Below, piece after piece: positions 37,045 through 57,072 of a stretch of DNA of 64,000 bases. The DNA is from Blastococcus sp. LR1 (GTDB lineage: Bacteria; Actinomycetota; Actinomycetes; Mycobacteriales; Geodermatophilaceae): the NCBI RefSeq assembly GCF_020166105.1, contig NZ_JAIUJY010000002.1:434001-498000 (forward strand), in the 5' to 3' direction. How positions within the stretch are numbered: position 1 is the first letter of the stretch; each line of letters opens with the position of its first letter. Position numbers and translations under genes: made by a program. The notes beneath the pieces are model-generated. The model saw nothing but the letters and a program-made list of their open reading frames with translations, was not told the origin of the DNA and made no database searches.

Positions 37045-38343
37045 TCAGCGCAGCTCGGTGCCCTTGGTCTCCTTGAGCGTGAGGATCACGCTGAACGCCA
37101 CCACGGCGGCCACCGCCACGTAGATGAAGAACCAGAGCGGACGATCGGCGTCGGACAGCGCGGTGATGACCAGCGGCGCCGTCCCGCCGAAGATCGCGAC
37201 GGTGAGGTTGTACCAAGCGCCGATCCCGGTCGCCCGCAGCTCCGTCGGGAACAGCTCGCTCATGATCGCCGGAGCGATCGAGGCCATCAGTGCGTAGAGC
37301 CCCAGCCCGACGCAGAAGACGACGATGAGCGACGCCAGGTTGTCCTGCACCAGGAACGACAGCGGCACGATGAGCACCGCCATCGCGCCGGACCAGATGA
37401 GCAGCTGCGGCTTGCGGCCGATCCGGTCCGACAGCTTGCCGAACGGATAGCAGAGCGCCACGAACAGCGCCGTCCCCACCGACAGCGCGATGAAGACGTC
37501 GGTCGAGTCGGCGTCCCGGAAGTTGATCGCGAACGGCGTCAGGGCGCTGAAGAACGTGTAGTACGACAGCGTCGAGAGCAGCGTGAAGGCGCAGAGCTGG
37601 AGCACTGCCCGCGGGTGGTGCTTGATCGTCTGCATCAGCGGGTTCTTGGTCGCCTTCGCCTTCTCGGCGTTCTCCTCGAACTGCTCGGTCTCCACCAGCG
37701 AGCGGCGCAGCCACATGCCGATGAACCCGAGCAGACCGCCGATGAAGAAGGCGATCCGCCAGCCGTAGGACTCCAGCTGGTCCTGGTTCAGCACCGTCGT
37801 CAGCAGCACACCCATGAGCGAGGCGGCGAGCAGCGCGGAGCCGGTCGAGATGTAGAAGAACGCCGAGTAGCGGCCGCGGTGCGCCGGCGGCGCGATCTCG
37901 CCCAGGTACGCCGAGGCGTTGGAGACCTCGCCGCCCAGCGACATGCCCTGCGCGATCCGCGCCAGCAGCAACAGGATCGGCGCGAACCAGCCGACCTGCT
38001 CGTACGTCGGCAGGAGCGCGATGACCATGGAGCCGCCGGCCATCAGCAGGATGGTCAGCAGCATCCCGGCTTTGCGCCCCTTGAGGTCGGCGAACCGCCC
38101 GAGGACCAGCCCGCCGAGCGGCCGGAAGAAGAAGGCGAGGGCGTAGGTCGACGTCGCGCCGATCAGCTTCAGCGCCTCGTTGTCGCCGGGGAAGAACTGC
38201 CCCGCGAAGAAGACGACGAAGGTCGCGTAGACGGTCCAGTCGAACCACTCGACCGCGTTGCCGATGCTGGCGGAGACCAGCGTCTTCACCGGGAGCTTGT
38301 GCTTCTCCTCGGTCGCCTGCTCGTGTCTTACCGCGCCCGCCAT
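37045..38343 (-). CDS. MHS-family MFS transporter (metabolite/H+ symporter)
   Basis: 432 residues, about twelve membrane helices, of the metabolite:H+ symporter group that includes ProP and KgtP. Diagnostic segments are VSASIGNAVEWFDWTVYATF at helix 1, FFRPLGGLVLGRFADLKGRK (the loop 2/3 motif) and RIAQGMSLGGEVSNASAYLG in helix 4. It would import an organic acid, betaine or similar solute with protons. ATG 38343 follows GAGGGGGGC. The promoter contains a 16-bp palindrome (38389-38404) and is directly downstream of the candidate small RNA. Confidence 0.9.
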   Translation of the reverse strand: MAGAVRHEQATEEKHKLPVKTLVSASIGNAVEWFDWTVYATFVVFFAGQFFPGDNEALKLIGATSTYALAFFFRPLGGLVLGRFADLKGRKAGMLLTILLMAGGSMVIALLPTYEQVGWFAPILLLLARIAQGMSLGGEVSNASAYLGEIAPPAHRGRYSAFFYISTGSALLAASLMGVLLTTVLNQDQLESYGWRIAFFIGGLLGFIGMWLRRSLVETEQFEENAEKAKATKNPLMQTIKHHPRAVLQLCAFTLLSTLSYYTFFSALTPFAINFRDADSTDVFIALSVGTALFVALCYPFGKLSDRIGRKPQLLIWSGAMAVLIVPLSFLVQDNLASLIVVFCVGLGLYALMASIAPAIMSELFPTELRATGIGAWYNLTVAIFGGTAPLVITALSDADRPLWFFIYVAVAAVVAFSVILTLKETKGTELR

Positions 38344-38379
38344 GGTGCCCCCCTCGGTCGTGCGGTCGTGACCGGGCTC

Positions 38380-38408
38380 ACGCTAGAGCGGTCAACGTTG
38401 ACCGGCAC
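38380..38408 (-). promoter_or_regulatory. MHS transporter promoter with 16-bp palindrome
   Basis: Reading the minus strand, TAGCGT (38380-38385) is a good -10 for the transporter. Its -10/-35 spacer is filled by the perfect palindrome CGGTCAACGTTGACCG (38389-38404); the matching -35 (38403-38408) is poor. A dimeric regulator bound here would control the transporter; which regulator is unknown. Confidence 0.6.
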
Positions 38409-38422
38409 CTCGAGCCGGACGC

Positions 38423-38459
38423 ACGAGAGCCCCCGCCCGGAAGGGGCGGGGGCTCTCGT
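38423..38459 (-). terminator. 16-bp hairpin terminator of the candidate small RNA
   Basis: Perfect arms 38423-38438 and 38444-38459 (ACGAGAGCCCCCGCCC) with a five-base loop. It lies between the structured RNA and the transporter promoter, so on the minus strand it would end the small RNA before the transporter gene. Confidence 0.8.
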
Positions 38460-38602
38460 CGTGATGAGGTCCGGACCGGATGACGGCCGCCTCGCGGCGA
38501 AAAGCACAACACGGCTCCAGGCCCCCGACCGAGGTCGGGGCGGTAGTCCGTGAAGGCGTAACCAAATGGCACCCGGGGGCACGATGCACCCGGTCCGGAC
38601 TC
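38423..38602 (-). ncRNA. Candidate structured small RNA with own promoter and terminator
   Basis: Minus-strand candidate transcript of about 180 nt in the only gap above 300 bases in the window (38344-38671). Promoter: GCGACA (38631-38636), 17-base spacer, TACTCT (38608-38613). The predicted 5' end pairs with a region 110 bases downstream: GTCCGGACCGG (38590-38600) with CCGGTCCGGAC (38469-38479), 11 perfect pairs. Inside are a 7-bp hairpin (38523-38540), a 5-bp helix closing it (38548-38552 with 38510-38514) and a GCCGC hairpin (38486-38498). A 16-bp terminator ends it. I do not recognise the fold: it lacks the core motifs of common riboswitches, SRP RNA, tmRNA and RNase P RNA. The closed rod-like form recalls 6S RNA, but that is only a resemblance. 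Confidence 0.55.
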
Positions 38603-38671
38603 CGCCCAGAGTACGCGCCAGAGCACCCCCTGTCGCTGTCCGCCGTGTCACGCCGCGTGGGCCCGGAGGGT

Positions 38672-48432: not shown

Positions 48433-48446
48433 GCGACGACTACCTC

Positions 48447-48569
48447 CTCATCTTCCCTGCGTCGGGCCGTCGAGCCGCACAGGACGGAATTGGCACCTCC
48501 CGCTGCGCGAACGCAGGCGGCGGTTGCCGGGGCTTCATCGGGCCGTGTCCCTCTGCCCCTCTGGATGAG
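48447..48569 (-). promoter_or_regulatory. SAM-I (S-box) riboswitch upstream of thrC
   Basis: On the minus strand the leader contains the S-box core CGATGAAGCCCCGGCAACC (about 48522-48540), preceded by AGAGGGGCAGAGGGAC, and the GGTGCCAATTCCG segment (48485-48497). CTCATC (48564-48569) pairs with GATGAG (48447-48452) as P1. The P1 3' strand runs directly into GAGGAGG, the thrC ribosome site, so SAM binding probably alters initiation. The motif set is specific to SAM-I. Confidence 0.92.
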
Positions 48570-48629
48570 TGAACAGCCCGCACTCTACCCAGTCGCGGAC
48601 GGCCGGCGGCGGCCGGACAGGATGGCCCG

Positions 48630-56601: not shown

Positions 56602-57000
56602 GTGAGCAGCTCGCGGCCCGATCCCCTGCGGTGGATCTGGTACGCCCTCGGCGGCGGCCTCCCCCGGCGGCTCTCGCCCTGGGTGCTGGAGGACACCACC
56701 CGGCGCACCTGGGTGTGGCGGCACCTGGCCCGTGCGGTGGTCCAGCTCAGCCCGCTGGTGCTGATCTGCCTGCTGGCCATCCCGGTGCCGCTGAGCGACC
56801 GGATCTCCGCCGCCGTCGGGGGCCTCCTGCTCGGGCTGCTGTTCTCGCTGGCCTACATGGTCGAGACGATCGAGCACCGCGTGGCGAAGGCCGGCTACGA
56901 ACCGGGGACGGCGGCCCGGCTGCGCGCCCGCCGCGCCGAGCGCGAGCGGCTCGAACGACTCTCGCCCTACCGCCGCGACGGCTCGGGCAGCTTCGACTGA
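56602..57000 (+). CDS. DUF5313 membrane protein
   Basis: 132 residues matching the actinobacterial DUF5313 family: RPDPLRWIWYALGGGLPRRL, WVLEDTTRRTWVWRHLARAV, then two membrane helices (LSPLVLICLLAIPVP and GLLLGLLFSLAYMVETIEH) and a basic tail (RLRARRAERERLERLSPYRR). Function unknown. GTG 56602 is six bases after TACCGT (56590-56595), leaderless. The stop codon abuts the 3' end of tRNA-Thr on the other strand, sharing one base. Confidence 0.83.
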   Translation: MSSSRPDPLRWIWYALGGGLPRRLSPWVLEDTTRRTWVWRHLARAVVQLSPLVLICLLAIPVPLSDRISAAVGGLLLGLLFSLAYMVETIEHRVAKAGYEPGTAARLRARRAERERLERLSPYRRDGSGSFD

Positions 57001-57072
57001 GCCGACGAGGGGACTCGAACCCCTAACCGCCCGATTACAAGTCGGGTGCGCTACCAGTTGCGCCACGCCGGC
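57000..57072 (-). tRNA. tRNA-Thr (anticodon UGU)
   Basis: Minus-strand cloverleaf of 72 bases plus a discriminator U. The acceptor stem GCCGGCG/CGTCGGC has one G-U pair; the D arm is GCGC-8-GCGC, the anticodon arm CCCGA-CTTGTAA-TCGGG (anticodon TGT at 57037-57039), the variable loop five bases and the T arm AGGGG-TTCGAGT-CCCCT. CCA is not encoded. The discriminator base is also the last base of the DUF5313 stop codon. It decodes ACA and other Thr codons. Confidence 0.97.

Follow-up and report, generated by a model that had tools for sequence, protein, structure and literature searches.

In mycobacteria, the structured RNA Ms1 is reportedly about 300 nt long, and its two ends are said to be joined by a helix. 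Its counterpart in Streptomyces coelicolor, scr3559, measures about 230 nt, lies by a HAD hydrolase locus, and has been shown to bind polymerase (PMC9130861). Ms1 represents a free-standing, intergenic, structured RNA that is widespread in Actinobacteria, a description that also suits the RNA considered here. The family to which the latter belongs differs from Ms1 in that it is shorter, often occurs in multiple copies, and is found at other loci. A second point of comparison is provided by the sigma-E-dependent small RNAs (sRNAs) MicA, RybB, and MicL of Escherichia coli. The likeness lies in a small RNA under an ECF-type promoter that stands apart from protein genes (for the existence of sigma-E sRNAs, see PMC6767563). 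Our RNA is more structured than these. To our knowledge, there is no homology between its family and MicA, RybB, or MicL.

Functions have been established for very few of the sRNAs of Streptomyces (PMC8388888). In S. coelicolor, six sRNAs that include scr7204 have been tied to sigma-E ChIP-seq sites, and the kinetics of this group could not be modelled; in the part of that paper where it appears, scr7204 is only a name in a list, and neither its family nor its structure is described there (PMC10771440).

The DNA analyzed here is a stretch of 64,000 nucleotides from Blastococcus sp. LR1 (the window). One of its intergenic gaps encodes, on the minus strand, a free-standing structured small RNA. 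This RNA is one branch of an actinobacterial family with a core of about 80 to 155 nt, usually followed by a strong hairpin, which is missing from Rfam 15 and apparently unrecognized as a family.

Locus, promoter, and terminal hairpin in Geodermatophilaceae

The gap at 38344-38671 comprises 328 bases and is gene-free in the list of open reading frames, which agrees with the initial annotation of this DNA. Downstream of the RNA and on the same strand lies an MFS transporter gene (37045-38343, minus strand; PF07690), while the other side of the gap is bounded by the end of a scramblase-like gene (PF03803, minus strand), beyond which an M20 peptidase gene is found in divergent orientation. The RNA core of 133 nt occupies 38468-38600 on the minus strand and is matched at G000:C2:472468-472600 by both of our covariance models, R1 and R2, the latter built from 103 sequences. 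Its 5' end is predicted near 38600-38602, so that the transcript would run from 38600 to 38423 (about 178 nt, both ends being predicted and unmapped). The home genome contains a single copy, the next-best match in the covariance model search having an E value of 1.05.

A BLAST search with the gap gave a match in 102 of 112 Geodermatophilaceae genomes, some of them restricted to the terminator region (e.g., G034 and G036); nine of the ten genomes without a BLAST match belong to genera g5 to g7. From the 102 matching genomes, 90 core-bearing loci were studied (30 from the BLAST output itself and 60 fetched in addition), and 61 of these entered alignment A1. Across these loci, the core (38600-38468) is conserved far beyond its flanks. 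Its length is 126, 132, 133, 134, or 135 nt in the 90 members, which makes a conserved reading frame unlikely. The upstream side often carries the scramblase-like gene and/or the M20 peptidase gene, and the downstream gene varies, which shows that the RNA and the transporter gene are not coupled. A seemingly invariant GCGGACAGCG block upstream of the RNA turned out to be an artefact, gaps having been counted as the majority letter.

The promoter originally proposed for this RNA, GCGACA-17-TACTCT, holds for its -10 element, and its -35 element is less secure. TACTCT (38608-38613, minus strand) corresponds to a TAnnnT motif that begins 13 or 12 nt upstream of the RNA in all 90 Geodermatophilaceae members, compared with a mean of 2.4 and a maximum of 7 after mononucleotide shuffling. 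The possible -35 element GCGACA (38631-38636, minus strand) is present in the sequence but only loosely kept in the rows inspected, and a consensus promoter scan over the locus scored no promoters. The TAnnnT motif is probably part of a primary-sigma promoter. At the opposite end, a hairpin of 16 bp with a loop of 5 (38423-38459, minus strand) had been designated a terminator. It is present and recurs in relatives, given that a perfect hairpin with a stem of 8 bp or longer lies within the next 65 nt in 53 of the 90 family members and in 68 of 113 others (random mean, 3.6 in each set). No T run comes after it, however, and the hairpin at 38459-38423 is absent from the output of the terminator scan, whose sole minus-strand site falls inside the RNA. 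Hence, the label "terminator" is based on the hairpin itself and on its presence in relatives, and we refer to it as terminator-like.

Fold and covariation

The minus strand of 38423-38636 folds with a free energy of -126.9 kcal/mol, a stability not equalled by any of 200 dinucleotide shuffles (z = -4.26). The end-joining helix, initially described as 11 bp long, is present and comprises 14 pairs in the alignment-based structure (P1; 38587-38600 paired with 38482-38469), and the internal hairpins that had been described are likewise found in the minus-strand sequence. P2 connects 38579-38583 with 38487-38484 through one bulge and contains two covarying pairs, each of them split evenly over 60 distinct rows between C-G (30) and U-A (30). 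The P3/P4 arm (38504-38557) consists of 38557-38548 paired with 38514-38504 and a hairpin of 38543-38534 with 38529-38517; it varies in length and has shrunk to a short hairpin in most of the compact variants discussed below. Two further elements complete the core, a CGCC-GCGA-GGCG hairpin with a GNRA-type loop (38488-38499) and a near-invariant CCCCGGG segment (38572-38578), which is unpaired in the branched fold and is a candidate interaction strand. CCCCGGG or CCCCCGGG occurs in 136 of the 138 sequences counted, with near forms in the remaining two.

Covariation of the paired arms across relatives, the absence of which had been named at the outset as a ground for refutation, is present. In alignment A1 (61 Geodermatophilaceae sequences, 40-pair structure), 99.0% of the pair cells are standard and 11 pairs are altered on both sides, a number reached by none of 500 shuffles; RNAalifold on the same alignment returned 40 pairs, 9 of them with compensatory changes. 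Of the 2425 pair cells, 168 are G-U, and pairing drops from 99.0% on the minus strand to 92.7% on the complement, which identifies the minus strand as the correct one. For the class-wide set of 103 sequences, a tree-based null with 40 simulations yielded 16 significant pairs, all in the proposed helices, in a model-fitted alignment that is itself biased towards the structure; a structure-free MAFFT alignment of the same sequences yielded 2, both again in the proposed helices, and our guess is that this number is low because P1 changes length. An alignment-free test of P1 was designed to avoid the bias. In this arm-swap test (n = 102, one of the 103 sequences being skipped since the motif was not found), own arms paired with a mean of -25.8 kcal/mol versus -14.9 kcal/mol for swapped arms, and in 52 of 102 cases at most 1% of foreign 3' arms bound equally well. 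In view of the covariation and arm-swap results, helices P1, P2, and P3 are well supported. A GGCUCCA-UGGAGCC pairing that is perfect in one genus proved to be broken in the window's own group and was discarded.

The evidence for the CGCC-GNRA-GGCG hairpin lies in the pattern of its loop, which is GCGA in all 90 Geodermatophilaceae members. Outside this family, 46 of 48 distinct relatives keep CGCC-GNGA-GGCG (GAGA in 31, GUGA in 11, and GCGA in 4) and 2 depart from it, a count that includes covariance-model hits only and in which, the model having been trained on hairpin-bearing sequences, just the free loop letter is unbiased. Named loci from the pattern scan were chosen by a pattern that contains the CGCCGNGAGGCG hairpin and are not counted as evidence for it. 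The stem is nearly without variation.

In the rod fold, CCCCGGG pairs with the near-invariant segment of this hairpin. For the window sequence, the rod reaches -75.5 kcal/mol versus -65.6 kcal/mol for the branched fold, a difference of about 10 kcal/mol in favor of the rod, which is also the RNAalifold choice on alignment A1. Covariation cannot choose between the two, since both competing segments are nearly invariant. The loop pattern of the hairpin favors the branched fold over a single closed rod, and both states may exist. This bears on the likeness to 6S RNA suggested in the initial annotation. A closing helix and, in Geodermatophilaceae, a housekeeping-style -10 element are indeed shared features. 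In contrast, the branched fold, which we favor, lacks the long rod with a central open bubble, although a rod persists in the RNAalifold and single-sequence folds. No Rfam 6S model matched the window or the relatives scanned, and we consider the likeness unsupported.

Spread and promoters in Actinobacteria

Within the order, model R1 matched 213 of 397 genomes. Within the class, it matched 50 of 296, a number that R2 raised to 81 of 296, with two to four copies in 33 of the 81 positive genomes. In a phylum-wide sample, 8 of 198 genomes were positive, all of them inside the class. A DNA pattern scan of named genomes, for which 80 of 119 stretches were listed, returned only Actinobacteria among the matches listed, the genera being Streptomyces, Micromonospora, Amycolatopsis, Lentzea, Actinomadura, Nocardiopsis, Microbispora, Rhodococcus, and Prescottella, along with others. 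A Modestobacter metagenome-assembled genome was also among the matches listed, with a copy scoring 136 bits. The spread of the small RNA first noticed at this locus is far wider than is visible from the window. Compact variants with lower scores extend to further families of the class and may define the minimal functional core; the 20 that were fetched are 82 to 119 nt long with scores of 42 to 56 bits.

Members outside Geodermatophilaceae carry another type of upstream signal. GGAA[C/T]-N15-19-GTT is present within 60 nt upstream in 97 of 112 cases, and the spacer is exactly 18 in 95 of these 97, whereas random 60-mers from the same loci gave a mean of 0.74 (maximum, 4) and shuffled upstreams gave 0.43. 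The 112 are distinct upstreams from which Geodermatophilaceae rows, the L055 antisense artefact, hits with less than 61 nt upstream, and exact duplicates were left out. Several of the 15 upstreams without the motif are one letter off, and a looser form (GGAA[N], spacer of 17 to 19) is found in 8 of the 20 compact variants. The motif is found in none of the 90 Geodermatophilaceae upstreams, and nothing therefore points to an induction by stress of the copy in the window.

The sigma-R motif is given as GGAAT-N18-GTT (PMC2375139) or with a spacer of N18-19 (PMC9205884) and the sigma-H motif as GGAAYR-N17-GTT (PMC4803200). The S. coelicolor sigma-E motif is described as having a similar -35 element and a spacer of mostly 18 (PMC10771440), and elsewhere the sigma-E spacer is modelled as 16 to 17 (PMC6767563). 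Hence, GGAA[C/T]-N18-GTT upstream of most non-Geodermatophilaceae members sampled matches, by its sequence, a sigma-R/sigma-H-type promoter, with the sigma-E type close by. Given the similar -35 element of sigma-E and its reported spacers of 18 or 16 to 17, we do not choose between sigma-R/sigma-H and sigma-E.

Gene contexts were obtained with a simple home-made gene caller and not taken from annotation. For 121 RNAs with a called neighbor, the nearest called gene downstream shares the strand of the RNA in 55 of 109 cases and lies on the opposite one in 54 of 109. The position of the RNAs is mostly intergenic, with two (L155 and L189) overlapping a called gene. The Streptomyces copies examined are located beside FUSC, HAD_2, and SDR genes, others being next to, e.g., a DNA ligase gene. 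The S. coelicoflavus copy is preceded by a FUSC-like gene and a HAD hydrolase gene that share its strand. S. coelicolor sRNAs are numbered by their right flanking gene (PMC3765725, where the naming is explained), and SCO7205 is called a putative hydrolase in a passage of PMC3897704. Combining this with the order HAD-FUSC-RNA in S. coelicoflavus, scr7204 is probably the S. coelicolor member of the family, an assignment by gene order and not by sequence similarity.

Some genomes contain clusters of two or three RNA copies within about 1.3 kb (L131, 1501-2795; L182, 391-957; L190, 3195-3468; L200, 80-352; L225, 6890-7332), which suggests local gene duplication. In the compact variants (L292 to L311), the P3/P4 arm is mostly replaced by a short CGCUUCGAGCG-type hairpin, and CCCCGGG (CCCCCGG in one) and the CGCC-GNRA-GGCG hairpin are kept.

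Function and status of the family

The explanation that we prefer, with a probability of roughly 0.55 for the whole, is that these free-standing, structured RNAs form a new family of trans-acting sRNAs in Actinobacteria, induced by stress through ECF sigma factors outside Geodermatophilaceae and driven by TAnnnT within. Outside Geodermatophilaceae, thiol-oxidative or envelope stress would turn on the RNA through an ECF sigma factor, either one of the sigma-R/sigma-H type or one of the sigma-E type. It would then act in trans, most likely through a C-rich strand (the near-invariant CCCCGGG together with a CU-rich linker) that a rigid junction would expose to mRNAs. This mode of action is that of stress sRNAs whose seeds are C-rich. 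Conceivably, CCCCGGG and the CU-rich linker of most members pair with G-rich translation starts; alternatively, the strand might be bound by a protein. Within Geodermatophilaceae, this RNA would have moved under a TAnnnT promoter, probably one read by the primary sigma factor. The CU-rich linker is not conserved, however, and reads UGCCAUUUGG in the window's own group, leaving Shine-Dalgarno pairing unsupported there. Moreover, the rod fold hides CCCCGGG, which counts against an exposed strand. The family would be new but of a known kind, the bacterial stress-type small RNA, and unusual in combining a structure conserved across the class with a promoter that switches between the ECF type and the TAnnnT type.

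The divergent linker of the window's group makes a protein partner a serious rival. The RNA could serve as a structural scaffold for a conserved protein, either in a ribonucleoprotein particle or as a sponge for a regulator, and not act by base pairing. The junction and the GNRA-type hairpin are near-invariant throughout the class, and it is the linker that would pair, not the core, that varies; the structure and conservation of the core exceed the needs of a simple base-pairing sRNA, which fits a protein partner as well. On the other hand, no neighboring gene is common to the families seen, with the caveat that neighbors were not systematically clustered, and we regard the scaffold as somewhat unlikely. 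In a bolder version of the stress-RNA reading, slightly less probable than the scaffold, the class-wide family supplies the noncoding part of the stress response under sigma-R/sigma-H/sigma-E and its core is possibly a two-state switch, in which CCCCGGG is either paired with CGCCGNGAGGCG (rod, seed hidden) or free beside the GNRA hairpin (branched, seed exposed). Such a switch is possible since CCCCGGG can pair with the near-invariant CGCCGNGAGGCG or stand free.

That the RNA might be the missing 6S/Ms1-type RNA of Geodermatophilales and bind RNA polymerase seems improbable to us. The end-joining helix is stable, the rod is the best single-sequence fold, and, according to PMC9130861, neither Ms1 nor its synteny was found in Geodermatophilales, the authors allowing for Ms1 without synteny. 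However, the predicted 178 nt here fall short of the roughly 200 to 300 nt expected of Ms1, and the cores of 80 to 155 nt elsewhere compare with about 230 nt for Streptomyces Ms1. The neighbors at the window are the MFS transporter and the scramblase-like/M20 pair instead of the HAD-IB hydrolase/oxidoreductase pair of the Ms1 locus, the Streptomyces copies examined also lie elsewhere, and Rfam scans gave no 6S match. RIP-seq in S. coelicolor, as described in PMC11077062, gave two polymerase RNAs, scr3559 and scr0792, which is relevant only if the S. coelicolor member of the family was expressed at that time. Less probable still is regulation in cis, with the RNA as a leader (riboswitch or attenuator) of the transporter gene downstream. 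The RNA does lie upstream of the MFS transporter gene on the same strand, and the hairpin at its 3' side lacks a T run, but the downstream gene changes among relatives and is on the opposite strand in 49 of 102 cases outside the family, and more than half of the members have a strong hairpin behind the core. Both readings fit less well than a trans-acting sRNA. Finally, high G+C content makes stable folds common, and the antisense strand also scores weakly (E values, 0.0009 to 0.006), as might be expected of a chance fold, a repeat, or a coding remnant. We give this hardly any credence considering the compensatory changes, the outcome of the arm-swap test, the G-U strand asymmetry, the promoter and hairpin signals, and the varied core lengths. 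Coding and cis-riboswitch readings were in fact rejected on core lengths, the variable downstream gene, and compensatory changes.

The chief antibiotic producers are found among Actinobacteria, as are important pathogens. If our preferred reading of a trans-acting, stress-induced sRNA is true, a structured RNA common to Streptomyces, Micromonospora, Pseudonocardiaceae, Streptosporangiaceae, and Geodermatophilaceae, mostly under a stress-sigma-type promoter, would be the counterpart of the E. coli sigma-E sRNAs for the class, and the noncoding part of the sigma-R/sigma-E response would be directly testable in S. coelicolor. The interest of the family rests on this breadth and testability.

An Rfam 15 scan of the window gave no family at gathering score over the RNA. 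Together with its own promoter and the terminator-like hairpin, this bears out the initial annotation of an undescribed, structured, free-standing small RNA. Among 20 of the 29 loci L121 to L149, no Rfam family overlapped the RNA, only tRNAs being found elsewhere in the loci, and for single relatives at a relaxed threshold the top score was 19.1 bits, for P5 (gathering score, 60). A description of the family was not found in the literature searched, although supplements and most subscription papers were outside the reach of this search and absence is unproven. Sub-threshold Rfam scores in the gap mostly sit on the hairpin at 38459-38423. The plus-strand scores for sbcD and sodF stayed below the gathering scores of these families; each of the two matches ends on the perfect terminator hairpin, and we take this hairpin to be their cause. 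CoRP RNA of Corynebacterium was set aside, its two fragments measuring 318 and 198 nt. The 20 compact-variant loci gave only Ms_IGR-5 (RF02471) in Rfam, at another place and on the opposite strand (L308, 1387-1577, minus strand); this we judge to be a different RNA, as it lies about 260 nt from a compact variant and on the other strand. Ms_IGR-5 also occurs in the home genome (G000:C4:317610-317871, minus strand), away from the RNA. Elsewhere in the window, the Rfam scan detected a SAM riboswitch (RF00162; 76.4 bits; 48445-48571, minus strand) and a tRNA gene (69.2 bits; 57000-57072, minus strand).
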